33,482 nt of DNA. Origin: a virus. Position 1 is the stretch's first letter. Every line of letters begins with the position of its first letter. Below, one piece after another: positions 1 through 33,482 of the stretch. The notes under the pieces were generated by a model. The model saw only the letters and a program-made list of their open reading frames with translations. It made no database searches and was not told the DNA's origin. Position numbers and translations under genes: made by a program. The stretch spans positions 1 through 33,482 of IMG/VR virus record IMGVR_UViG_3300034111_000131; one strand, given 5' to 3'.

Positions 1-127
1 ATATATTACCTGCATTATCTTTAACTCTAATTACAGTAGTCGCATTTGTTCCCGTGCTTAAATTACGGACATTTAATCCTTCGAATGTAGAATCTATTGT
101 TTTGACAATATCTACGTCAACACTTGG
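1..127. repeat. 127-bp exact terminal direct repeat, left copy
   Basis: These bases are identical to 30024-30150, compared base by base. At the next position the copies differ (C at 128, T at 30151). The repeat begins at the first base of the window and lies inside the tail-fibre gene in both places. A perfect 127-base overlap starting exactly at a sequence end is what a de Bruijn-graph assembler with k = 127 leaves at a branch or circle closure. This part is inference; the identity is seen directly. Confidence 0.97.
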
Positions 128-424
128 CGAACTCGTACCAATCCCCAAGCGGTTGTTAGTTGAGTCCCAAAATAAAGACGAACTCTGCTGCAACACATTC
201 CCCGTACCTTGAAACAATACTCTTCCTATTGTACCCGAAGATATAGGTGTAGTGCCGACTGTTAAGCCTGTTGGCGGTAGCGGTATCGCATCAATGAGTT
301 CTTGACCAGTAATGGACTTAGTAACGTAAGAACCGCCTACAATTGTTGAAACTTCTATTAAATCCGTAGCGTCTAAGTCCGCCCCTTTGGGCGTCATTTG
401 GCTAATTTTCTGCGTTAGGTTCAT
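1..424 (-). CDS. Tail fibre / receptor-binding protein, N-terminal part (runs off the left end)
   Basis: The frame opens at 424 and stays open to the window edge, so only about 141 N-terminal residues are present. They match the N-terminus of the fibre gene at 29110-30450 closely: KISQMTPKGAD, then ATDLIEVSTI, then LFWDSTNNRLGIGT, a phrase typical of Bacteroidota phage and cell-surface fibre proteins. If the sequence is circularised through the 127-bp repeat, this N-terminus joins 30023-29110 in frame to give a 445-residue fibre. The start is chosen because the ATG is directly abutted by the late motif TTTAATATTGTT (425-436). It lies 13 bp downstream of the 149-residue tail gene. The role, host recognition at the tail tip, is inferred from family style and its place after the tape measure. 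Confidence 0.8.
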   Translation of the reverse strand, partial: MNLTQKISQMTPKGADLDATDLIEVSTIVGGSYVTKSITGQELIDAIPLPPTGLTVGTTPISSGTIGRVLFQGTGNVLQQSSSLFWDSTNNRLGIGTSSPSVDVDIVKTIDSTFEGLNVRNLSTGTNATTVIRVKDNAGNI

Positions 425-7101: not shown

Positions 7102-7131
7102 AACTATATTAATTTGCGCCCGTCTTTAATT
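7102..7131 (-). promoter_or_regulatory. Late start-abutting motif, copy 3 (tail operon)
   Basis: AAATTAATATAGTT abuts the ATG of the 489-residue tail gene, in the gap after the large terminase. It differs from the consensus TAATATTGTT at one position (A for T). The AACAA box position reads AATTA. Confidence 0.5.
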
Positions 7132-8281
7132 AGAAAGCAAAGTAGGCGTCGTCGGTAAAGTATTGTTCTTTTATGTAGGTTGTCGCGTACCTAGTGGCGT
7201 CCATTGCGTCGTCGTAAAGCTTAACAGGTTCGTCTAAGATTTGGTCGCCCATTTTTTTCCACTTGTAATTCTGGTATTCTTTCTTTAAGTGTTCGTTTTC
7301 AAGACAAAAGACCCCGAAGGTTTTAATGTTGTCGATACCTTTCTTCACTGACTTGTTCGCATTTAGAACATTGTAACCCGCGTTGTTCATTTCGGCTATA
7401 ATTTCGGGGCGTGCGTAGTCGGCAATTATTTCCGTTTCTTTCTCGATGTTTAGGTCAGCTAGGCGGTCTATAAGGTTCGAGGTTGTTAGGTAGCTTTCGT
7501 AAATTACGGGTTCTATGAAAATGTCTTTCTCATGCCAATAGACGCGCACTAACGCGGTCGGGTGATTGTAACCAAAGTCTAAGCCATAGACGAACTGCGT
7601 AAAGCGTGAAGGCCTGTGAAGTGCAAATGTCCAGTTTGAGTAAATATTGCTTTTGCTTATAGCCTTTTCACCTAGCGCGTAGATTTGGTAAAGGTCGGCG
7701 TCTGTTCTTTTTAGGTCTTCAATCGTTCGTTTGATACTATCAGGCAAAAACGGGTTGTCTTTGTACGTGGACTTTATTAGTACACTTTCTTCTTTTGGTA
7801 GTTCATAAAGCCAGCTATTCGACTCTGAGGGGTTGTAGTCAAAAATCATTTTGAACTCAGTACGCATATTCAGCTGCAAAAAGTCTTCATAGAATAATTC
7901 GTTCGCCTCGTTACACCATGCTATAGAGCGCTTGCGGCCGCGCACCTTTTGCTCGTCATCTAACGAAAAAAATTCAACCATAGACCCATTTGGAAAGGTG
8001 TACGTGTTTGACGACATATTGTGGCTATTCTTGTCGTAGATACCAGACTCTTTAAGGACCTCGAAGAAGTCACGCATAGCCGTAGACTTTAGGGCGTTTA
8101 ATGTCTTACGAATAATCGAAACGACCACGCCTTTGTTCTGTAGGCAATAGACTAGAATAAGCTGGCAAAGCGAGTAGGTCTTACTTGAACGCGAACCCCC
8201 TTCGTTAATGATAAAACGCGCCTCGTTATTGTAAAGCGCGTCGTAGTTACGTTCAAAGACTATTGTACTCTTTAGTTCCAT
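7130..8281 (-). CDS. terL: Terminase large subunit
   Basis: The DNA-packaging motor ATPase and headful nuclease, 383 residues. Walker A is GGSRSSKT (28-35); the Walker B region is IAWCNEANE (120-128) with adjacent acidic residues. The RNase H-like nuclease carries its acidic triad at GLDFGY (D235), IADYA (D288) and YDDAMDATRYA near 360. This is the PBSX/Terminase_3-type architecture. It follows the small subunit with a 1-bp gap. A homologue with about four in five identical residues (by eye) but different synonymous codons is at 30480-31640. In the main phage tail genes follow directly, and the portal is some 13 kb away around the circle. This is a less usual order than terminase-portal-capsid. 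Confidence 0.96.
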   Translation of the reverse strand: MELKSTIVFERNYDALYNNEARFIINEGGSRSSKTYSLCQLILVYCLQNKGVVVSIIRKTLNALKSTAMRDFFEVLKESGIYDKNSHNMSSNTYTFPNGSMVEFFSLDDEQKVRGRKRSIAWCNEANELFYEDFLQLNMRTEFKMIFDYNPSESNSWLYELPKEESVLIKSTYKDNPFLPDSIKRTIEDLKRTDADLYQIYALGEKAISKSNIYSNWTFALHRPSRFTQFVYGLDFGYNHPTALVRVYWHEKDIFIEPVIYESYLTTSNLIDRLADLNIEKETEIIADYARPEIIAEMNNAGYNVLNANKSVKKGIDNIKTFGVFCLENEHLKKEYQNYKWKKMGDQILDEPVKLYDDAMDATRYATTYIKEQYFTDDAYFAF

Positions 8282-8714: not shown

Positions 8715-8892
8715 TGTTCGTGTTTTTAAAGTGGTCTAAAAAGTCGTCTTCGCTTACAAACTCAATACAAAGTAAGCCTTCTTGGTCTGTCAAGTACAAA
8801 ACATAATGCACCCCGTCGCGTTCTAGCTGGTCTTGTATTGCTGAACAATAAGCGGCCATGTTTTTACCCATGTCTACGACTGCGTATTTCAT
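8698..8892 (-). CDS. Hypothetical protein, 64 aa
   Basis: A small acidic soluble protein, ending KNTNNGRKA, with no recognised domain. It is embedded between two conserved genes: its start overlaps the previous stop by 4 bp and its end overlaps terS by 17 bp, good evidence for a translated gene in this operon. In the homologous block at the right end, terS follows the preceding gene directly and this gene is absent, so it is an accessory insertion or a loss between relatives. Confidence 0.7.
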   Translation of the reverse strand: MKYAVVDMGKNMAAYCSAIQDQLERDGVHYVLYLTDQEGLLCIEFVSEDDFLDHFKNTNNGRKA

Positions 8893-9362
8893 CGGTCTAT
8901 TTGTTCGAGTTTACGTTGCGCCCATTCGATGCCCTCGTTGCCACCCCATGCTAGCCACATCAATCTACCGCATCCGTCGCCTAGTTCTTTATTTGAGTGT
9001 TGGCGGTGTCGTTCAAATGCTGCCATTCTTGCAATAGTGTCGCGGCTTATTGGTTCGTTTTTTGCTAGTTGGTTGGCTCTAGCTTTTCCTACTTCCGTTC
9101 CACAAGAACCCCATCCGTTTTCCTCGGCCCATCTTAGAGCAATTTTGGCGTTTTCGCTTGCTTGTTTTGGGTAGTCGGTGTAGCTATCTTCGGCAAAAGA
9201 ACGCTTGTAAAGGCTTAATGCTTCGCGGGCGTGTGTTTCCCATACTCGATTGCATACTGCAAAACGTTGGTCTTCTTTAGGGAACGAGTTTACGCTTTCT
9301 TCGTCGGCCATGCAACGCTGAATAAACGTTTCTTTCTTTTCTCCTTTAATTGGTTGAGGCAT
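8889..9362 (-). CDS. Conserved phage protein of unknown function, two Cys-containing modules (157 aa)
   Basis: The N-terminal module reads F-RCM-DEE---FP-EDQR-AVCN--WE (residues about 13-43). The C-terminal module contains YPKQASENAK, then ISRDTIARMAAFERH (about 110-124) and a closing CGRLMWLAWGGNEGIEWAQ. These two modules recur in many tailed phages, often near or fused to head-maturation genes; I know of no established function. A homologue is at 32144-32620 with the same module order. It overlaps the upstream 95-residue gene by 17 bp and the downstream gene by 4 bp. A head or packaging accessory role is inferred from neighbourhood only. Confidence 0.75.
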   Translation of the reverse strand: MPQPIKGEKKETFIQRCMADEESVNSFPKEDQRFAVCNRVWETHAREALSLYKRSFAEDSYTDYPKQASENAKIALRWAEENGWGSCGTEVGKARANQLAKNEPISRDTIARMAAFERHRQHSNKELGDGCGRLMWLAWGGNEGIEWAQRKLEQIDR

Positions 9363-9633
9363 TGCTTTTGCGTTTACGTGTTTTTGTAGCTGGTTTCTTA
9401 CGTGTTTCGGTTGGTTCGACCGCCTTAGGTTCTTCTACTGCGTCCGACTGCGACGTTTCGTGGTCTATTCCCGTGTAAGCAATAGTCGATTTCTCGAAAA
9501 GGTAGCCTAAGCCTATGGTATTGTAATACGTAAAACGTGCGGGGTCGATTTTGTCGACTTCAATTTTACGTTGTCCTAGAACCGAGTCGTAGGTTACTAT
9601 GGTTTTTCCTTTGTATTCGTCTTTAATTTTCAT
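9346..9633 (-). CDS. Hypothetical protein with basic C-terminal tail (95 aa)
   Basis: It begins MKIKDEYKGKTIV, has a conserved core ending IGLGYLFEK, then an acidic/proline linker and a strongly basic tail (RKKPATKTRKRKS). The homologue at 32586-32870 shares the start, the G-GYLFEK core and the basic tail but differs in between. The N-terminal part resembles short phage virion-associated or head-joining small proteins, but no family is claimed. The basic tail suggests nucleic-acid or acidic-surface contact (inference). It overlaps both neighbours (11 and 17 bp). Confidence 0.75.
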   Translation of the reverse strand: MKIKDEYKGKTIVTYDSVLGQRKIEVDKIDPARFTYYNTIGLGYLFEKSTIAYTGIDHETSQSDAVEEPKAVEPTETRKKPATKTRKRKSNASTN

Positions 9634-9796
9634 CTTGTTTCTTGTTTAGTTCTTCGTCAAAGCGACCAATAATGTAAGCGCATATCCCAACGCCTAAGAT
9701 TTGCAAATAGGCCGTTTGGCCTTCGTAAGTTAAAGCTATGCCCATAGCTAAGAAAGCAAGGGTAGCAACTGCGTAAAATAGTTTATAAGCGCTCAT
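9623..9796 (-). CDS. Small membrane protein, 57 aa, two hydrophobic segments
   Basis: A short frame reading MSAYKLFYAVATLAFLAMGI at the start, with a second hydrophobic stretch LQILGVGICAYIIG (residues 31-44) and a charged tail DEELNKKQDEN. Two transmembrane segments with a charged C-terminus are holin-like, but the position beside the sigma-like gene, far from the lysis genes, argues against a confident lysis call. The ATG is directly abutted by an exact late motif (AATATTGTT), which lies within the final codons of the sigma-like gene. It overlaps the next gene by 11 bp. It is absent from the homologous block at the right end. Confidence 0.7.
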   Translation of the reverse strand: MSAYKLFYAVATLAFLAMGIALTYEGQTAYLQILGVGICAYIIGRFDEELNKKQDEN

Positions 9797-10355
9797 AACA
9801 ATATTGAATTTTTCTTATTTTTTGTTTTAAGTCCCTGATCATGTAATGGGCAGACGTTCGACTAACGTTAAAATATTCTGCCATAGCTTCGGCCGTTTGC
9901 TTTTTGTCGTCAAAATAGACTTGTGCTATTCGTTTTTCCACAGGGTCGACTATTTCCGACCTGTATTTTTGAATGCACCACTTGCGAAAGTTGTAAACGT
10001 TTTCAATTTGGATCTTGTCTAATACTTCGTCGTTGTCAGGTTCGTCTAGTAGGTCGGGGACTTGGCTATTTATGTCGTCTTGTTTATGGCTTAAAGACGT
10101 ATTCCAAATTATTTGGTATTTGATTGTGTTTAGTAGGTAGCTTTTTACGCTATTTTCGTCCGTCTTTTCGGTGTCAATAGTCAAAACGTGCAAGTAAGCG
10201 TTGTTTATGCACGTGTCGGCGTTCAGCATTGAGCAAGCCAGCTTTTTGCTATTGACGTAACGCGTTAAAAAGTAATTAGCGTAGGCCCTTACTTCTTCGT
10301 AGTTTTCGCTTACGTACTTGTCAAGCGTTTGCTTCAAACCATTGTAAGAACTCAT
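9783..10355 (-). CDS. Sigma-70-family-like transcription factor (phage sigma candidate)
   Basis: About 190 residues. An N-terminal helical part resembles sigma region 2 (YANYFLTRYVNSKK to VKSYLLNTIKYQIIW, roughly 23-85). A C-terminal helix-turn-helix resembles region 4 (VEKRIAQVYF, then TAEAMAEYFNVSRTSAHYMI, about 137-175). A variable acidic linker joins them, as in ECF-type sigma factors. The start at 10355 (MSSYNGLKQTLDKY) is preferred over an upstream in-frame ATG at 10403 because the homologue at 32854-33387 aligns from MKATLDRY. It overlaps the 67-residue gene by 35 bp. The promoter at 10768 would make it a middle gene. It is a natural candidate to recognise the late start-abutting motif; this is inference. 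A non-sigma HTH regulator is the alternative. Confidence 0.7.
   Translation of the reverse strand: MSSYNGLKQTLDKYVSENYEEVRAYANYFLTRYVNSKKLACSMLNADTCINNAYLHVLTIDTEKTDENSVKSYLLNTIKYQIIWNTSLSHKQDDINSQVPDLLDEPDNDEVLDKIQIENVYNFRKWCIQKYRSEIVDPVEKRIAQVYFDDKKQTAEAMAEYFNVSRTSAHYMIRDLKQKIRKIQYCYERL
9797..9826 (-). promoter_or_regulatory. Late start-abutting motif, copy 4
   Basis: TTCAATATTGTT abuts the ATG of the 57-residue membrane gene and AACAA lies exactly 30 nt upstream of it. The motif is inside the 3' coding end of the sigma-like gene, so the same bases serve two purposes. Confidence 0.55.
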
Positions 10356-10524
10356 TATAAAACTTTTGTCGGTCAGGGACTCCACACAAACATCGGTTGT
10401 CATATTGGCCCGTGACCTTGTTTCTAATGGATTGCAACTTACGTAAGTGCATTTTACTAAGCCTTTCGGGGTTTAGAATGGCTAGTATTCCGTTTATTTC
10501 TAGTAATTGAGCTTCGCTAAGCAT
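10321..10524 (-). CDS. Small conserved protein with CxC motif (67 aa)
   Basis: A 67-residue soluble protein with a Leu-rich helical N-terminus and a C-terminal VTGQYDNRCLCGVPDRQKFY segment. The partial gene at the right end (33371-33482) conserves VTGQ-D--C-C and the ending WYESNA/WFEANA, and in both phages the gene overlaps the start of the sigma-like gene. Obligate pairing with the sigma-like factor in two relatives suggests a shared role, perhaps as a modulator of it, but no family is recognised. It overlaps the upstream membrane gene by 25 bp. Confidence 0.75.
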   Translation of the reverse strand: MLSEAQLLEINGILAILNPERLSKMHLRKLQSIRNKVTGQYDNRCLCGVPDRQKFYNEFLQWFEANA

Positions 10525-13662: not shown

Positions 13663-14196
13663 TCAATTCAAACTATTTTTTTGCAAAATTTTAATTTTTT
13701 CTTTGTACGTATGTATTAAATACTTCAATTCGTCGGGTGTATACTTGCGCGTTACGTGGGCTTTTTCGTGCAATTCTAGTAACCTTTGCGCGCCTATTCG
13801 CTTTTCTATTCCTATTTGGTATTCTAATAAGTTTCCGTGTTTCCATTGGTTACAGGCTACGCATTGACCGTGTACGTTATCTTCATTGAATGTAACTGCT
13901 TTGTGTCCACCTGAACTCCAAAAATGTCCTGCGTCAAATTTATCTCCGAGTTTTGAACCGCAACTGATACAAGGCTTATTCTTATCACGTTCTCTTATGT
14001 ACTTATTGAAAACTACTTGGGCTTCTTTTAACCAGTCTGAGGTTGTTTTTAGGTTTTCTTTCATTCGTGTTTTCGTCTGCTTCCATTGCTTCTCTCTTGC
14101 TTCAGCTACAAAAGCACGGACACACTCGTCTTTTAGACAGTATTTATGATTCCATCGGATAGGCTCAAACTTTTCCCTACAGTTCTTACATCTCAT
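13663..14196 (-). CDS. ninG: NinG/Rap-like recombination endonuclease
   Basis: 177 residues with paired zinc-binding cysteines at C3/C6, C20/C25, C76/C79 and C112/C115. DAGHFWSSGG (88-97) and FNEDNVHGQCVACN (103-116) are the hallmark of the lambda NinG (Rap) HNH-like family. NinG/Rap acts on recombination intermediates such as Holliday junctions and D-loops, in keeping with the neighbouring ERF and exonuclease. Its start overlaps the methyltransferase gene by 11 bp. Confidence 0.92.
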   Translation of the reverse strand: MRCKNCREKFEPIRWNHKYCLKDECVRAFVAEAREKQWKQTKTRMKENLKTTSDWLKEAQVVFNKYIRERDKNKPCISCGSKLGDKFDAGHFWSSGGHKAVTFNEDNVHGQCVACNQWKHGNLLEYQIGIEKRIGAQRLLELHEKAHVTRKYTPDELKYLIHTYKEKIKILQKNSLN

Positions 14197-14857
14197 CGAA
14201 TATAGATATTTGATTTGTATTTGATTTCTTAACTATGTTTAATGCCGTTTCGAGTATTGTTCTTCCCGCTTCATAGTCCACAAGATTACGTGCCATTTTA
14301 TCTACTCTTTGTTCTCCGTTGTATTTAGTAAAATCATAATCGTGAAACCTTGAAAGTTGACTAACTTTTGAATGAATAAAATTACTTGCTTTTCTATCTC
14401 CTAAATCAGCAGGTAAAATAAAATTAGTCCAATACAAATGACGCCCTCTTTTTTGACCTGGTATTAAAGGCTCATAATACGGAATGACATTTTCAATGCA
14501 AAATTTACCTTTAAAAAAATGTTGCAATAAAATTATTTCTTCATACAACATCATATTTGGATATGTAGCTTTTGATTTACGCTCACCTTCACCTGTATTT
14601 GTTTTTCTCATTCGTGAATGTGTAGGACACGGAGGAGAACTCCATATAAAATCGAACTCTGTAAAATGCTCTAACAAGTATTGGTGTGCGTCTGCAACAA
14701 TTACTATGTCATTCGGAAATCTTTCTTGATAAAGTCGTGCTGCTTCAGGGTCTAACTCTACTGCAGTAATTTCTATTTCTATGCCTGCTTCTTTGGCTAC
14801 TTCGTCCCACTTGTATCGGTTACCACCCAAGCAAGCGTATAAGTTTAAAATTTTCAT
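14186..14857 (-). CDS. DNA C5-cytosine methyltransferase (short form)
   Basis: 223 residues, shorter than most Dcm-type enzymes. It has motif I LYACLGGNRYKW (6-17), a motif II-like ELDPEAA (34-40), catalytic PPCPTHS with C77, ENV (122-124) and GRHLYWTNF (138-146), with LVDYEAGRTILE as a likely motif X. The target-recognition region is minimal. It would methylate phage DNA, possibly to avoid host restriction. Base and codon use look less rich in TCG/CGT-type triplets than the flanking genes, pointing to recent acquisition with the PP-loop gene at 15161-16009. It overlaps the 98-residue gene by 4 bp. Confidence 0.9.
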   Translation of the reverse strand: MKILNLYACLGGNRYKWDEVAKEAGIEIEITAVELDPEAARLYQERFPNDIVIVADAHQYLLEHFTEFDFIWSSPPCPTHSRMRKTNTGEGERKSKATYPNMMLYEEIILLQHFFKGKFCIENVIPYYEPLIPGQKRGRHLYWTNFILPADLGDRKASNFIHSKVSQLSRFHDYDFTKYNGEQRVDKMARNLVDYEAGRTILETALNIVKKSNTNQISIFDEM

Positions 14858-15160: not shown

Positions 15161-16009
15161 TTATAGTCCACAATAACCCGAATCACAATCATTGAAATCA
15201 TCGTCAAATAAGTCCAATTGCAATTTATGGTTTTTAATCTTTTCGTAAGTTACTCCGCTTTTAAAAGTGCATCCGTTTTTTTGTTCCATGCGCACAAACC
15301 AATCAAACTGCTTCTCGTCTCGTTGGCTCATATGCTTTAAGAATATCTCGGATCGGTGAAAACATCCAACACAATTGTTTTTGTAAGCAAAGCGCACAGG
15401 TTTATCTTGCCAGTAGTTCTCAATAGTGTCTTTAAATATTCCGTCTTCAATTAGCGGAAAGCGTGTCATTCTATACGGCAACTCTTTCCATTTGTTACGT
15501 CCGTTTTTATGTCCTACTTTAAACTTAAAGTTTTCTACTCCGTCAACTGCTCGCTCAATCATTGTTTTGGCACGGCTCATTTCATTGGCTCTAAACCCTA
15601 TTCTCATTTCAACTGGTAACTCCGTATTTTCGTAACACCATTGTGCAATTGGCTTTACTTTCATGTCGGTGGTACAAAAGCGAGTCATTTGATTAGGTAA
15701 GTAATTTGTGCCATTAGCCATCTTGTAAGATGCTATTACCTCATCAAACGTTCTATCGCTTAACCAAATAATCTGCTGCCCAATGTACTGCTCAAGGTCT
15801 AGCATTGTGTAAATTATTGTATCTTCCTCAAGCGTACCGATAAACTCCTTGCCTATTCTATCGCTTACAATTTGACGAACCTTCGCATCAGGAAATAAAA
15901 CATTGATGTCGTCAGTTCGAACCAATGAAAATACGTTAAAGTCAGCAGGGTAGTTAGCTGCTATGTAGCTCGATGTTTTACCACCGCTTAATGAATTAAT
16001 TGTTTGCAT
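15161..16009 (-). CDS. PP-loop (PAPS reductase-like) ATP pyrophosphatase
   Basis: 282 residues opening with MQTINSLSGGKTSS, an SGGKTS PP-loop (8-14) as in the PAPS reductase/adenine-nucleotide alpha-hydrolase superfamily. Cysteines occur at RFCTTD, NNCVGCFHR and the terminal SGYCGL, which could hold an iron-sulfur cluster or zinc. Phage members of this family are common but rarely characterised; roles proposed for relatives include tRNA or DNA thiolation and sulfur-type base modification. Its placement near a C5 methyltransferase suggests a nucleic-acid modification task (inference). Base use differs from neighbours, as for the methyltransferase. Confidence 0.85.
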   Translation of the reverse strand: MQTINSLSGGKTSSYIAANYPADFNVFSLVRTDDINVLFPDAKVRQIVSDRIGKEFIGTLEEDTIIYTMLDLEQYIGQQIIWLSDRTFDEVIASYKMANGTNYLPNQMTRFCTTDMKVKPIAQWCYENTELPVEMRIGFRANEMSRAKTMIERAVDGVENFKFKVGHKNGRNKWKELPYRMTRFPLIEDGIFKDTIENYWQDKPVRFAYKNNCVGCFHRSEIFLKHMSQRDEKQFDWFVRMEQKNGCTFKSGVTYEKIKNHKLQLDLFDDDFNDCDSGYCGL

Positions 16010-27524: not shown

Positions 27525-28281
27525 GGTTAAGTTGTACCAATTTAAAGAACTTCGGGAACTCAAAGACTCCGAAGGGTTTTTTAATACGCAACTAGAAACG
27601 CTTGCAATCCTTTTAGACGTGCCTAGCGACGAACTAGAAGAACTTTCTTTAGACGAAATAGGCGAACTATTTAAGTCCGTTAAATGGGTTCTTAGCGAGC
27701 CTAAGAAGGCCCACGCAAGCGAAGTTATAATAGACGGCGATACGTACATTTTAAAGCCGTTTAAGAAGCTTACGCTAGATGAGTTTATAGACCTTAACTA
27801 TTTCTTGACAAACGACTACTTAAAGCATATTTCGCATATTGTTTCCGTGTTTTACAGGCGTATTAATAAGGATAACTGGGGGAATATTGAATTTGAACCC
27901 TACATATTTAACCCGTTCGACGTGTTCGATAAGTTCGACGACTTGAATATTACGCAAGTCTACGGGCTTATTCCTGAGTTCCTAAAGTGGCGCGACGACT
28001 TTCTAAAGAAATACGAAAACTTATTTAATCAAGACGACGACGAAGACGACGAACCCTTAGACGTTAAGGAATTTGAAAGCTTAGAAGAATACAAGGAAAG
28101 TTTAAAGGCCCAAGAACAAGCCAAGAAGTCTAAAAAATGGGGGTGGGAAAGTTTGTTGTTTGACCTTTGCGAAGGTGACCTAACAAAAATAAAGGCAGTC
28201 GGTGAACTGCCCTTAATCTTTGTCTTTAATATGTTATCGATGCGTAAGGAAATGGGTTACTTAGAAACCCCTAAAGGTTAA
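27499..28281 (+). CDS. Possible tail assembly chaperone, second of the pair (260 aa)
   Basis: 260 residues. The N-terminal 110 residues match the preceding protein (VKLYQFKELREL, ILLDVPSDELEELSLDEI, then DGDTYILKPFKKLTLDEF). The rest adds a long extension with a low-complexity acidic stretch NQDDDEDDEPLDV and a Trp-containing segment KKWGWESLLFD. It has its own ATG within the end of the first gene, in a +1 phase relative to it, which does not fit the usual -1 frameshift of chaperone pairs. Its 3' end overlaps the convergent HK97 gp10-like gene by 21 bp. Confidence 0.6.
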   Translation: MKVPKGWHEVKLYQFKELRELKDSEGFFNTQLETLAILLDVPSDELEELSLDEIGELFKSVKWVLSEPKKAHASEVIIDGDTYILKPFKKLTLDEFIDLNYFLTNDYLKHISHIVSVFYRRINKDNWGNIEFEPYIFNPFDVFDKFDDLNITQVYGLIPEFLKWRDDFLKKYENLFNQDDDEDDEPLDVKEFESLEEYKESLKAQEQAKKSKKWGWESLLFDLCEGDLTKIKAVGELPLIFVFNMLSMRKEMGYLETPKG

Positions 28282-28692
28282 CGCCGCGTTGAACTCCCCG
28301 CCTATTGGCTCGAACGTGTAAATAATACTGCGCTTTTCTCCTAAGATTGTAGCTACTTGTAGGATTGGGTAACGTTGTGCCATCCATTCCGTGTATTGCT
28401 CGAATATCTCGGCGGTCGTTCCGTTGGCGTTTAGTTCTTCGGTAAGCTTAGCGCATAAGTCAAAAGCTGCCATGTTTACAGTACCATTATTTAAGAACCC
28501 GAAGTAGTACATTGCTAGAATTTGTATTTCTAATTCACCTAAAGCGGGGATTTGGGCGTTAATACGAATAGAGTCGTAAAGCGCACCCGTGTCGATTAGT
28601 GCCTCGGATGCAATAACACGCTTCAAAGTCTTTGCGATCTTGTTACGTGTTTTGTACTTAATGTTAAATATGCCGTTATTCTTGTACGCCAT
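28261..28692 (-). CDS. HK97 gp10-like head-tail/tail completion protein (143 aa)
   Basis: 143 residues with the DTGALYDSIRI motif (about 36-46) near the N-terminus, characteristic of the HK97 gp10 family of head-tail joining and tail completion proteins. The rest (EIQILAMYYFGFLNNGTVNM and a Trp/Tyr-rich end) fits as well. It overlaps the 48-residue gene by 17 bp upstream and converges with the plus-strand unit at its 3' end. Confidence 0.8.
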   Translation of the reverse strand: MAYKNNGIFNIKYKTRNKIAKTLKRVIASEALIDTGALYDSIRINAQIPALGELEIQILAMYYFGFLNNGTVNMAAFDLCAKLTEELNANGTTAEIFEQYTEWMAQRYPILQVATILGEKRSIIYTFEPIGGEFNAALTFRGF

Positions 28693-28827: not shown

Positions 28828-29097
28828 TTAAATTAAAGTTACTCCAATAGCGGCAGCAACATACTCGTTCACTACGTTGTTGTCAGTACCCCATGCTGCG
28901 AACTCTTCTTCGGTTAAGGTGTAGTTACCTTGCGAAAGTTGAAGTCCGTCTTCAGTTAGGAGCTGCCAATACGTTGTGCAAGTCGTTGCCTCAGTTGTAA
29001 AGTTAAGAACTAAAACGGACATTTGCGTAGCCGTTCCTGCGTTTAGTGGGTATACAATCGGCTCGATTGCTACTCCTTGTGTTGGTTGTGTTTTCAT
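28828..29097 (-). CDS. Small virion-associated protein candidate (89 aa)
   Basis: 89 residues, mostly beta and Thr-rich (PLNAGTATQMSVLVLNFTTE, then TYWQLLTEDGLQLSQGNYTL), with no cleavage signal. This fold-like pattern with a WQLLTEDG turn recurs in small phage proteins next to fibres. It comes right after the fibre gene (12 bp) and 5 bp before the 48-residue gene. A fibre-associated or cement role is inferred. Confidence 0.65.
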   Translation of the reverse strand: MKTQPTQGVAIEPIVYPLNAGTATQMSVLVLNFTTEATTCTTYWQLLTEDGLQLSQGNYTLTEEEFAAWGTDNNVVNEYVAAAIGVTLI

Positions 29098-29109: not shown

Positions 29110-30450
29110 TTAGTAAAATGCGTTCCAAGTTGTTCCGTTATATCCGTAGTGTTTGTTATCCGTGTTATCGTAGACAACCAATCCTGCGGCAGGTGATGCT
29201 ATTGCGTTGCGTTGCGTTGTGGTCATTCGTGGGGGTAGGAATCCTTTTGTTGTGCTTGTTAACTCAAGGATTGAACTTGCATTTGCTGCGGATTGATTAC
29301 CGATGCTTAATGCGGTTGCTATATAACTATTATTTCCCGATTGAGCGCCATTCAAGAAAATATATCCCGTTGCATTTTGATAAAGCGTTAGCGTTCCGTT
29401 AGGTCCGTCATTATTTAATTTTGCTCTTAAACTTCCTGCTGCATTTGTTAAAGAAAAATTTGAGTATGCGCCTGCTGCATTAAAGTTCCCGTTTGTATCA
29501 TACGTTATTGCGTATGTATTTGGAGCTACGAATCTCGCAGTACCATTGACGTCTAAACGGAAGCCTGCGTCTGTGGTGGTGTTGATGAGGACGTTGCCTG
29601 TAGAAAATATACGCATCCTTTCAGTTCCATTAGTTCTAAAAGCGTGTCTAGATTGATGGTCATAATCACCCGAACCATAAAGGTCTAATGTTTGCGTGTT
29701 TCCGTTGTTAAATAAACGTAATCTAAAATCAGATGAACCAATACCACTTGATGCAGTTTGAATCATTGCAGTTGCTCCGTTGCTTACAGAAAAGCTACTT
29801 AAAGACGTACCTACAATAGTCGTATTCCCCTGCACCCTCGCAGTACCATTGACGTCTAAACGGAAGCCTGCATCGGTTGTTGTGTTTATTAGGACGTTGC
29901 CGTTTGGAGATAAACGCATTCTTTCAGAAGCATTTGCATAGAAAGCAAGTATTTGTTTATTCGTGTAAAAATAGCCTATGTTTGGCAACGAAGTATGATT
30001 GGTTCCTCCAAGTCCGAACTCGCATATATTACCTGCATTATCTTTAACTCTAATTACAGTAGTCGCATTTGTTCCCGTGCTTAAATTACGGACATTTAAT
30101 CCTTCGAATGTAGAATCTATTGTTTTGACAATATCTACGTCAACACTTGGTGTACTCGTGCCAATACCCAAGCGGTTGTTTGTTGAATCCCAAAATAAAG
30201 ACGAACTCTGCTGCAACACATTCCCCGTACCTTGAAACAATACTCGTCCAACAGTACCCGAAGCTATCGGTGTAGTGCCGACTGTTAAGCCTGTGGGCGG
30301 TAGCGGTATTGCATCAATGAGTTCTTGACCAGTTATAGATCGTGTGACGTAGCTTCCACTCTCAATGGTGGATACTTCGATTAGGTCGGTTGCTTCCAAG
30401 TCGGCTCCCTTGGGAGTCATCTGGGATATCTTCTGTGTTCTAAATGCCAT
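29110..30450 (-). CDS. Tail fibre with internal repeats (possibly chimeric N-terminus)
   Basis: 446 residues. The N-terminus (QKISQMTPKGADLEATDLI) matches the gene at the left end. The shaft has two copies of a module containing GNVLINTTTDAGFRLDVNG, and the C-terminus reads FLPPRMTTTQRNAI then YDNTDNKHYGYNGTTWN, a hallmark ending of Bacteroidota phage fibres. The first 300 bases of the gene (30151-30450) differ in composition from the rest and come before a terminase of the second phage. The part 29110-30150 belongs to the main phage as well. The gene may thus be a join of two genomes. Confidence 0.8.
   Translation of the reverse strand: MAFRTQKISQMTPKGADLEATDLIEVSTIESGSYVTRSITGQELIDAIPLPPTGLTVGTTPIASGTVGRVLFQGTGNVLQQSSSLFWDSTNNRLGIGTSTPSVDVDIVKTIDSTFEGLNVRNLSTGTNATTVIRVKDNAGNICEFGLGGTNHTSLPNIGYFYTNKQILAFYANASERMRLSPNGNVLINTTTDAGFRLDVNGTARVQGNTTIVGTSLSSFSVSNGATAMIQTASSGIGSSDFRLRLFNNGNTQTLDLYGSGDYDHQSRHAFRTNGTERMRIFSTGNVLINTTTDAGFRLDVNGTARFVAPNTYAITYDTNGNFNAAGAYSNFSLTNAAGSLRAKLNNDGPNGTLTLYQNATGYIFLNGAQSGNNSYIATALSIGNQSAANASSILELTSTTKGFLPPRMTTTQRNAIASPAAGLVVYDNTDNKHYGYNGTTWNAFY
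29534..29568. repeat. Direct repeat in the fibre gene, copy 1
   Basis: A 35-bp stretch identical to 29837-29871 and 303 bp apart, encoding the repeated shaft segment (AGFRLDVNGTAR). Perfect DNA identity within a protein-level repeat implies recent duplication or gene conversion, and allows shaft-length change by recombination. Confidence 0.9.
29837..29871. repeat. Direct repeat in the fibre gene, copy 2
   Basis: Identical to 29534-29568. Beyond the 35 bp the two modules remain alike for about 40 bp but with synonymous changes, so the shared segment has been homogenised. Confidence 0.9.
30024..30150. repeat. 127-bp exact terminal direct repeat, right copy
   Basis: Identical to 1-127. The sequence to the left continues as fibre of the main phage. 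The sequence to the right leads into the second phage-like block, while the left copy leads into the rest of the main phage. It is thus a branch point. Confidence 0.97.
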
Positions 30451-30480
30451 ACCTATATTGCAAATTGTCAGCCAAATGTT
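30451..30480 (-). promoter_or_regulatory. Late start-abutting motif, degenerate copy 7
   Basis: GCAATATAGGT abuts the fibre ATG at 30450, with AACAT in the position of the AACAA box. It belongs to the second phage segment, so a related form of the signal exists there too. Confidence 0.4.
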
Positions 30481-31640
30481 TAGAAGGCGAAGTATGAGTC
30501 ATCGGTATAGTACTCCTGGCGTATGTGCGTGGCAGCGTAGCGGATGGCATCCATGGCATCATCGTACAGCTTCACGGGCTCATCCATGATTTGGTCACCC
30601 ACCTTTTTCCATTTGTAGTTCTCATACTCTTTCTTGATGCGTGGCTCATCCTCGCAGACCACTCCGAAGGTCTTGATGTTGTCGATGCCCTTCTTGACCA
30701 CCTTGTTGGCGTTCTGCACATCGTACCCAGCGTTGTTCATCTCGGCAATGATTTCAGGGCGAGCGTAGTCAGCCACGATAGTGACGTGCTTCTCAATGCC
30801 AAGGTCGCCCATCTTGTCGATGAGGTTGGTGGTGGTCAGGTAGCTCTCGTATATGACCGGCTCGATGTAGATGTCATTGTCGCACCAGTAGACTCGTATG
30901 AGTGCAGTCGGGTGATTGTATCCGAAGTCGAGTCCATACACGAAGTTGACGAACCTTGCCGGGCGATGCTTGACGAATGACCAATTCGAGTAGATGTTGC
31001 TCTTGCTGATGGCTTTCTCACCGAGCGCATAGATTTGATACAAGGCTTCATCGGTGCGCTTGAGGTCCTCAATCTGTCGCTTGATGCTGTCGGGCAAGAA
31101 TGGGTTGTCTTTATACGTTGACTTGATGATGATGCTCTCCTCCATCGGCAGCTCGTACAGCCAAGAGGATGACTCACTCGGGTTGTAGTCGAAGATTAGC
31201 TTCTGCTCGGTCCTCATGTTGAGCTGCTGAAAATCTTCGAACCATAGCTCATTGGCTTCATTGCACCAGCCAAGGTCACGCTTGCGCCCTCGAATCTTCT
31301 GCTCGTCATCCACGCTGAAGAACTCCACGATGGACCCATTGCTGAATGTGTAGATGTGCTCCGACTTGTTGTGGCTCTGCACGTCATATATCTCCATCGC
31401 CTTCATGATTTCAAAGAAGTCACGCATCACCGTTGCCCTCAAAGCTGGGAATGTTTTGCGCACGATGCTGACCACCTTGCCAGGATGTTGGAGGCAGTAC
31501 ACCACGATCATTTGGCAGAGCGAGTAGGTCTTGCTCGAGCGGCTTCCACCCTCATTGATGATGAAGCGCACACCAGGGTCAGCCAGTGCGGTGTAGTTCT
31601 TTTCGAAGATGACAGTGCTGTCGATTGTGATTTCAGCCAT
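30480..31640 (-). CDS. terL: Terminase large subunit of a second, related phage
   Basis: 386 residues, with GGSRSSKT Walker A, LGWCNEANEL Walker B and nuclease motifs GLDFGY, VADYARP and YDDAMDAIRYA. By eye it shares about four in five residues with the enzyme at 7130-8281, but the codons are more GC-rich (CTC, ATC, GAG, AAG in place of TTA, ATT, GAA, AAA). The fibre begins 29 bp downstream, whereas in the main phage two tail genes, the tape measure and another tail gene come between. A 78-bp upstream gap holds a TATATTTG box. Confidence 0.95.
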   Translation of the reverse strand: MAEITIDSTVIFEKNYTALADPGVRFIINEGGSRSSKTYSLCQMIVVYCLQHPGKVVSIVRKTFPALRATVMRDFFEIMKAMEIYDVQSHNKSEHIYTFSNGSIVEFFSVDDEQKIRGRKRDLGWCNEANELWFEDFQQLNMRTEQKLIFDYNPSESSSWLYELPMEESIIIKSTYKDNPFLPDSIKRQIEDLKRTDEALYQIYALGEKAISKSNIYSNWSFVKHRPARFVNFVYGLDFGYNHPTALIRVYWCDNDIYIEPVIYESYLTTTNLIDKMGDLGIEKHVTIVADYARPEIIAEMNNAGYDVQNANKVVKKGIDNIKTFGVVCEDEPRIKKEYENYKWKKVGDQIMDEPVKLYDDAMDAIRYAATHIRQEYYTDDSYFAF

Positions 31641-31701
31641 AGGTCAAAGTTTAGGCAATAGGGATGCTATACGAGTATTTCTCTCATATAGACACTTCCG
31701 A

Positions 31702-31709
31702 CAAATATA
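31702..31709 (-). promoter_or_regulatory. -7 box TATATTTG upstream of the second terL
   Basis: A perfect TAnnTTTG match in the 78-bp gap between small and large terminase genes of the second block. The leader would be about 55 nt. The main phage has no such gap; its two terminase genes are 1 bp apart. Confidence 0.5.
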
Positions 31710-31718
31710 GCAATAATA

Positions 31719-32147
31719 CTACTCTGTCGGTCTAATTATATTCACCTTCACCTCGGAGATGCTCTGCCCTCCAGAAGTGATGTCAGTCTTTTCAGTGAGA
31801 CCATTCAGTCGCTGAGTGATGGATGCATTGAACTGCCCAACCATGCCTCCTTGAATTTGGTCGTTTCGAATTTCATCGCTTATGCGCGTGCAGATTGTCG
31901 TAAACGCTGAATATCTCCCTCCAGTGTTTGCGAAATAATCGTGCACCACAAGACCATGATCGTGTGCAAATACTCTGAAGCCACTCATTGTAAGCGGTAC
32001 CTCCAGTGGAATCGGTTCAGCCTTCCCAGTCTTATTTGAAAGGGAATATTGATACCTTGGATTCTCTTTCACTTTCTTTCTATACTCAACGAAAAGCTGA
32101 TATAGGTCCTCTGGCTCTTCGAAGTTTCTTGGTCTACCAGTTTTCAT
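31719..32147 (-). CDS. terS: Terminase small subunit of the second phage
   Basis: 142 residues homologous to the protein at 8283-8714: start MKTGRPRNFEEPEDLYQLF, middle VPLTMSGFRVFAHDHG and a shared RLNGLTEKTDITSGG segment. The middle is more divergent than the ends. It overlaps the preceding gene by 4 bp, with no 64-residue gene in between. Its role is DNA recognition for packaging. Confidence 0.87.
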   Translation of the reverse strand: MKTGRPRNFEEPEDLYQLFVEYRKKVKENPRYQYSLSNKTGKAEPIPLEVPLTMSGFRVFAHDHGLVVHDYFANTGGRYSAFTTICTRISDEIRNDQIQGGMVGQFNASITQRLNGLTEKTDITSGGQSISEVKVNIIRPTE

Positions 32148-32620
32148 ATCAATCCTAATCCTTTTAGTTTACTTTCTGCCCAATCAAGTCCAGTCTTGCC
32201 ACCCCACAGAAGGAATGAAACGTATCCGCAGTCCTCTGGTGCTGAATCCTCGAATGTAGGTTCTGCCCTGGATAGGTATGAGTACATTCTCTTGATCGTA
32301 TCCACTGAAATGGGCTCTTGATTTGCGAGCTGCTGTCCCCGAATTTTTCCCACCTGCGTTGCGCACTTGTTGCCGAGTTCTTTGTTGAGCTCGATTCCTC
32401 TGCGTGCATTGTTGCGCACCGAATCAGGATAGTCTGAGTAGGTTTTCTCTGCGAATGCTGCTCTGAACTTCGAGAATGCGCTCATTTTTGACTCTTCCCA
32501 CATCGAATTGCACACAGCATATCGCTGGTCATTCTCTGGAAAGTCCTGGAGTGCTTCCTCATCGCCCATGCAGCGATTTAGAAACTCATCCTTGGTTTCG
32601 TTTGGTGTTGGCTTTGGCAT
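32144..32620 (-). CDS. Conserved phage protein of unknown function, second copy (158 aa)
   Basis: Homologue of 8889-9362 with both modules conserved: FLNRCMGDEEALQDFPENDQ then QRYAVCN, and YPDSVRNNARRGIELNKELG, EPISVDTIKRMYSYLSR and VSFLLWGGKTGLDWAESKL. The start at 32620 (MPKPTPNETKDEF) is set by alignment to its homologue; a longer frame to 32764 runs through the neighbouring gene and is not supported. It overlaps the 94-residue gene by 35 bp. Confidence 0.75.
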   Translation of the reverse strand: MPKPTPNETKDEFLNRCMGDEEALQDFPENDQRYAVCNSMWEESKMSAFSKFRAAFAEKTYSDYPDSVRNNARRGIELNKELGNKCATQVGKIRGQQLANQEPISVDTIKRMYSYLSRAEPTFEDSAPEDCGYVSFLLWGGKTGLDWAESKLKGLGLI

Positions 32621-32870
32621 TGGTTTTTCTTTTTCGTTTTGGTGTTGGTTCTGCTCTCGGAGCTTCCGTCTGCTCATCTGCCTCAATGCCCTCGTATCGA
32701 ATGCACTGCTCTGGTGCAGTTGTGGTCTCCTTTTCGAACAAATAGCCGAATCCGATGCTGACATAGTATCGGTATCTGTTCACATCTATATTGTCAACAA
32801 CCACTGTCATGTTTCCGAGCGTGGTATTCTTGACGATAGTCTTGCCCTTGTATTCATCTTTTATTTTCAT
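32586..32870 (-). CDS. Hypothetical protein with basic C-terminal tail, second copy (94 aa)
   Basis: Homologue of 9346-9633: identical first 13 residues (MKIKDEYKGKTIV), a conserved GFGYLFEKE segment and a basic tail PKRKRKTNAKANTK. The linker is different in length and sequence. Its start overlaps the sigma-like gene by 17 bp because the 57-residue membrane gene of the main phage is missing here. Confidence 0.75.
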   Translation of the reverse strand: MKIKDEYKGKTIVKNTTLGNMTVVVDNIDVNRYRYYVSIGFGYLFEKETTTAPEQCIRYEGIEADEQTEAPRAEPTPKRKRKTNAKANTKRNQG

Positions 32871-33387
32871 AGTGTATGGATTTAAGCGTGTTTTTTATGT
32901 CAGAGATTAGATAGTGTGCTGACGTCACTGGGATGTTGAAATACTGCGCCATTGATCGTGCTGTTGTCAGCCCCTTATCGAAGTATGCCTTGGCGACTGC
33001 AATCTTGACGTTGTCTGTCAGCCCATCTCGGTAGATGTCCACCGATGACTTCCATCCCTGGTATTGCTGTTCGATTGCGATTTTGTAGTTCAAATCCTCA
33101 TCATCATCGAAAGTGTCAGGAACTGCGATTTCTGATGCCAGGATTCGCTCGTCCTTGAAGCTGTTGACGTTTTTCCAGATGACTTGCCGCTTGATTGAGT
33201 TGAGGATATAGCTCTTGACCTTGCCGACATCCTCGGTGTTGTCATTGATTTCGAGGCAGTGAAGGTATGCGTTGGAGATGACCGTGTCGATAGTGAGTTT
33301 CGGATTGTACTTGGAGCAGAAATACCTGGTGTAGCGATACAACTCCTCATAGTGTGACGATATGTAGCGGTCAAGCGTTGCTTTCAT
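32854..33387 (-). CDS. Sigma-70-family-like factor of the second phage
   Basis: About 177 residues from MKATLDRYISSHYEELYRYT. Region 2-like (YFCSKYNPKLTIDTVISNAY, then VKSYILNSIKRQVIW) and region 4-like HTH (AVAKAYFDKGLTTARSMAQ, then YFNIPVTSAHYLISDI) align with the protein at 9783-10355. The acidic linker is divergent. The start at 33387 is chosen by alignment and overlaps the preceding gene by 17 bp. Conservation in both phages marks it as a core regulator. Confidence 0.7.
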   Translation of the reverse strand: MKATLDRYISSHYEELYRYTRYFCSKYNPKLTIDTVISNAYLHCLEINDNTEDVGKVKSYILNSIKRQVIWKNVNSFKDERILASEIAVPDTFDDDEDLNYKIAIEQQYQGWKSSVDIYRDGLTDNVKIAVAKAYFDKGLTTARSMAQYFNIPVTSAHYLISDIKNTLKSIHYENKR

Positions 33388-33482
33388 ACCAGTTGGTGAA
33401 ATCTTTGTACCAGATTTTGCGTCTGATTTGCGAGCAGAAGCACTCACGGTCGGGCTGTCCGGTCACGCTGACCTTGATAGCC
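33371..33482 (-). CDS. Small CxC protein of the second phage (partial at right end)
   Basis: The open frame enters from the window edge and gives 36 residues: VSVTGQPDRECFCSQIRRK, ending FTNWYESNA. It matches the C-terminal half of the 67-residue protein at 10321-10524 (VTGQYDNRCLCG, ending LQWFEANA). The N-terminal half lies beyond the window. As in the main phage, its end overlaps the sigma-like gene. Confidence 0.75.
   Translation of the reverse strand, partial: AIKVSVTGQPDRECFCSQIRRKIWYKDFTNWYESNA

Follow-up and report, generated by a model that had tools for sequence, protein, structure and literature searches.

An exact 127-base repeat as the probable closing overlap of a 30,023-bp phage genome in a 33,482-base viral contig

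The DNA analysed here (33,482 bases in total; the window hereafter means this whole stretch) begins with 127 bases that occur again near its other end, and it encodes two terminases. The question is whether such an entry represents one long genome or a shorter one that was read past its own closing point. We favour the latter: with a probability of approximately 0.93, the repeat is a k-mer overlap of the assembler that closes the circle of one phage (A), and positions 30151-33482 are a fragment of another phage (B) joined to it within a shared fibre gene. Sequence comparisons support regarding the record as one closed A genome with a phage B fragment, rather than as a two-terminase genome of 33.5 kb. 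The 33,482-base entry would then conceal a complete 30,023-bp genome. The designations "lineage A" and "lineage B" used below are informal.

First, the repeat itself was re-checked. Positions 1-127 were identical to 30024-30150, and the two copies diverged at the very next base (128 C and 30151 T), confirming the initial annotation. An identity of 127 bases is not attainable by chance. The exact match formed the core of a longer homology, since 1-416 and 30024-30439 were 88% identical, with 95% identity in the first 300 bases. On the left, the repeat is bounded by the contig start, and on the right by the first mismatch; hence, 127 is the distance from the contig start to the fork, in keeping with a k-mer node, which is placed at 30024-30150. 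The repeat lies within the coding sequence of a tail-fibre gene on the minus strand, and on this strand the variable fibre body begins with the first copy. The fork in the fibre coincided with the border between the conserved N-terminal part (from 128) and the variable body (from 127), and it was at this border, next to 1-127, that lineage A and lineage B loci ceased to resemble the fibre N-terminus. Neither the junction stretch nor either of two pieces of the 127-mer had an exact match in scans of viral contigs, the closest records possibly lying outside the scanned set, and a 39-base core of the 127-mer was absent from all other fetched loci.

Subsequently, the circle obtained by joining position 30023 to position 1 (phage A, 1-30023) was compared with related genomes. 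A family search found one copy each of TerS (phrog_606), TerL (phrog_2), portal (phrog_12), major capsid protein (phrog_1623), tape measure (phrog_1538), endolysin (phrog_17001 and Pfam M15), ERF recombinase (PF04404), exonuclease (phrog_5715), NinG (phrog_171), and helicase (phrog_18375) in the circle, in agreement with the earlier statement that each expected module is present once. The length of 30,023 bp fell within the range of the circles of ten relatives that have a 127-base overlap of their own (28,815-30,428 bp). In lineage A, the 5632-7101 gene comes tightly after the terminase large subunit gene (TerL; 7130-8281 in phage A, minus strand), and the fibre cassette is flanked by the genes at 438-887 and 28261-28692. 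The closed circle had exactly this order, which was observed in 25 of the 26 A-nearest loci with both slots readable, some of these loci deriving from the same contig; the exception was the more distant L144 (TerL 80%). Lineage A contigs (e.g., L167, L162, and L091) spanned the closing point with similar spacing and a different fibre-body sequence.

The nearest complete relative was IMGVR_UViG_3300042317_000174 (G025, including L091; 30,555 bp), which forms a 30,428-bp circle. This circle was collinear with that of the window, and the blocks were mostly 89-98% identical at the nucleotide level. The two resemble each other in gene order, genome size, TerL (92% amino acid identity), several tail proteins (99-100%), and the 127-base overlap, whereas most of the fibre body differs and the TerS of the relative is of another type (51%). 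The lineage gene order, the overlaps of the relatives, and the single-copy terminase thus support the initial proposal that the main phage is probably a complete 30,023-bp circle. Phage A adds a member to a group of tailed phages (29-31 kb, IMG/VR) that is well sampled although uncultivated. Its genome also contains a gene matching the phage phosphoadenosine phosphosulfate reductase family (15161-16009; phrog_424), near which a short C5-methylase-like gene is located (14186-14857).

The fibre gene was then followed across the closing point. On the minus strand, 424 nt (1-424) and 914 nt (29110-30023) joined in frame to 1338 nt, encoding 445 amino acids with a single, terminal stop; re-derivation therefore upheld the claim that closing the circle leaves the fibre intact. 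The N-terminal part (2-424, minus strand) was the lineage A version: 128-437 was 90-98% identical to lineage A loci, and no lineage B locus was found among its 12 best matches. The C-terminal body (29110-30023, minus strand) extends over the junction into 424-1 without a change of frame. Within it, 357 bp were 96% identical to the lineage B locus L022, and no lineage A locus was seen to be as close. An 89-aa gene (28828-29097, minus strand) completes the cassette; it is found downstream of the fibre gene in numerous loci of both lineages, with amino acid identity of up to 97-99%. The cassette occupied either of two fixed slots, one following TerL and the other following the 438-887 gene, and these were mutually exclusive, exactly one being used in 48 of 48 loci with both readable. 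A 98-base unit was also found twice in the fibre body (29534-29631 and 29837-29934, 303 bases apart, 84% identical), approximately 70 bases of which were common to otherwise different fibres of both lineages (about 85-100% identity), and it may be a recombination linker. Furthermore, distant relatives (L161, L169, L171, L174, and L191-L193; TerL approximately 33% identical where found) had the fibre and the 89-aa gene (up to 93% amino acid identity), so the cassette seems mobile between distant phages.

We also examined the 3,332 bases beyond the second copy of the repeat (30151-33482). Throughout their length, they were approximately 91-95% identical to lineage B loci at the nucleotide level, as against 68% to the phage A terminase gene. 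The stretch starts with the N-terminal part of the phage B fibre in its lineage B version (30151-30450, minus strand; 91-93% identical to lineage B loci), and none of the 12 best matches to 30151-30479 was a lineage A locus. This is followed, all on the minus strand, by the phage B TerL (30480-31640; phrog_2), the terminase small subunit (31719-32147; phrog_606), and three further genes upstream of TerS (32144-32764, 32586-32870, and 32854-33447) in lineage B gene order, which hold the positions of 8889-10403 in phage A. The TerL was 97-98% identical to the closest lineage B loci at the amino acid level and 75% to that of phage A, and the TerS was up to 100% identical to those of lineage B loci. 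GC3 of TerL was 0.52 in phage A (0.53-0.56 in A relatives) and 0.74 in phage B (0.73-0.75 in B relatives). These matches to a second lineage, together with the single-copy terminase of near-full-length relatives, bear out the assignment of 30151-33482 to a place outside the circle.

In lineage B, the fibre cassette follows TerL by approximately 32 bases and the other slot is empty, as seen in 18 of the 22 B-nearest loci; the remaining four were intermediate loci with TerL approximately 78% identical and the A order. The TerL-fibre junction at 30450-30480 was considered as a second chimeric joint and rejected, since lineage B natively has this order and an almost equal spacing; the junction is accordingly genuine B sequence. 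As each side of the fork is native to its own lineage, the 127-mer is the only artificial joint.

To place the length of 127 bases in context, the ends of 46 near-full-length IMG/VR records (28.5-38.2 kb) were compared. An exact end overlap of 127 bases was found in 10 of these relatives, and overlaps of 97, 98, 101, or 123 bases in a few. A further 10 had an end-to-internal repeat of exactly 127 bases with an overrun of 44-4,661 bases, which is the signature of the window itself, and 12 had no such repeat. The breaks of the ten relatives with the end overlap were located 3.2, 6.6, 9.7, 13.7, 17.8, 23.3, 26.6, 28.0, 28.8, and 30.2 kb downstream of the TerL start (8.3 kb in the window). Ten breaks at ten scattered distances from TerL indicate that there is no fixed terminus. 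The repeat of the window thus behaved as a k-mer overlap: its length equals a k value of the assembler and recurs in 20 of the 46 relatives, its position is not conserved among related genomes, and its two exits each lead into their own genome (128-437 into lineage A, 30151-30479 into lineage B). The 127-base repeat is without biological function of its own. The suggestions that 127 is the usual largest assembler k-mer, here recurring at unrelated positions, and that the boundaries of the window are an assembly product were supported by these scattered overlaps. Two over-run contigs, G009 (L209-L210, 38,240 bp) and G046 (L213-L214, 34,193 bp), had a circle of approximately 29.4 kb, and their second lap was a variant that matched the first at only 84-92% identity in most of the aligned blocks and at 74% in one. 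Genome lengths in this clade are thus inflated by mixtures of strains. Many relatives over-run likewise, which distorts genome sizes, gene counts, and completeness calls based on terminal repeats in the clade.

Other readings of the repeat were weighed against these data. Taken as continuous, as the sequence is given, the window would represent an actual linear molecule, 33.5 kb or longer, from a recombinant phage with two terminase modules and two fibre N-termini, and the TerL-fibre junction, being a natural lineage B arrangement, agrees with this. However, two distinct TerL genes were found in none of the 46 near-full-length relatives, in which TerL was single apart from two cases of TerL repeated or split at contig ends; in addition, the slots are used singly, the repeat has the length of an assembler constant, and base composition shifts at the joint. 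TerL copy number, the use of slots, and base composition led us to reject the two-terminase hybrid, which we consider hardly credible. A physical origin of the 127 bases, as a direct terminal repeat of the virion DNA that is short as in T7-like phages, is in our view equally far-fetched, even though an exact direct repeat does bound a phage-sized unit. A packaging repeat is expected at a fixed genome position, whereas the ten relatives with a 127-base overlap break at ten positions; moreover, the repeat lies within the coding fibre gene and has the length of the assembler. It was therefore rejected as a physical terminal repeat.

Two narrower alternatives concern the fibre body. The circle may be right in length and order while 29110-30023 is partly phage B, the assembler having crossed inside the body too; because 357 bp are closer to lineage B, the A fibre body could lie elsewhere, and fibre bodies are highly mosaic. 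Nevertheless, the sequence from the fibre C-terminus through 28828-29097 to 28261-28692 runs without a break and resembles lineage A (94% to L167), and no second repeat marks another joint, making this quite improbable. Somewhat less improbable, but still unlikely, is a variant of the preferred explanation in which amplification chimeras, formed by template switching at the fibre N-termini, joined the B N-terminus to the A body; the fork would then be a library artefact and the own body of B would be different. The N-terminal stretches, at 88% identity, are a good substrate for such switching, whereas cross-lineage fibre segments occur at 95-97% identity in independent records and a second contig has a fibre-gene fork to an unrelated phage.

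Returning to the k-mer overlap as the preferred reading, the window can be explained as follows. A de Bruijn assembler (k = 127) would have met a branching node inside the tail-fibre gene, leaving the 127-base overlap. The contig would start at this node, complete one lap of the phage A circle (1-30023), reach the node again (30024-30150), and leave by the other branch into the related phage B (30151-33482). The fork would lie there because A and B are identical over a stretch where the variable fibre body begins, an identity that probably goes back to a recent exchange of this module. We infer that A and B were present in one sample, and reads would be expected to join the sequence on the 30023 side to base 128.

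The fibre bodies of A and B apparently coincide over 127 bases or more, whereas the N-termini remain specific to each lineage. We see an even chance that the co-occurring lineages, which differ in TerL (75%) and carry their cassettes at two fixed slots, recently exchanged the receptor-binding fibre body while each kept its N-terminal anchor, the fork being the crossover border. An exchange of fibre bodies is plausible in that independent records share fibre segments across lineages. A second fibre-gene chimera, the mirror image of the window, was found in IMGVR_UViG_3300042260_000193 (G035, L211:1-5147; 34,891 bp). Its first 4.4 kb resemble the unrelated phage L174, and a repeat of exactly 127 bases, located within the fibre gene, connects them with a circle of lineage A type (approximately 30.3 kb). 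Both forks seen to cross between distinct phages are thus located in the fibre gene, an indication that receptor-binding modules were recently exchanged. If so, such forks can be read as a record of ongoing exchange of host-range modules.

Among named phages, megablast with 1-24000 and blastn with the tail gave no match. The TerL was 32% identical at the amino acid level to those of cultured Bacteroidota phages (e.g., Parabacteroides phage PM708P3 and Bacteroides phage BU2-2). Those phages resemble the window in having a TerL of the same broad family, but no DNA-level similarity was found in the phage collection and they are not close relatives. A scan of genome contigs for a prophage or host yielded one pond MAG contig of 29.6 kb. 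The relatives at approximately 32% TerL identity in Bacteroides and Parabacteroides phages suggest that the host may belong to Bacteroidota.

Finally, overlaps of this kind have been described for assemblers. "127 bp artificial overlaps" were trimmed off SPAdes contigs (PMC5923482), and the COBRA study reported that de Bruijn assemblers leave maxK overlaps at contig ends (PMC10914622). The window agrees with both in having an exact overlap of k length at ends or forks, arising from circular or forked paths and not from a biological terminus. It differs in that one copy is internal and is followed by 3,332 bases of another phage lineage; since one copy is internal, a test of the two contig ends alone would miss the closure.
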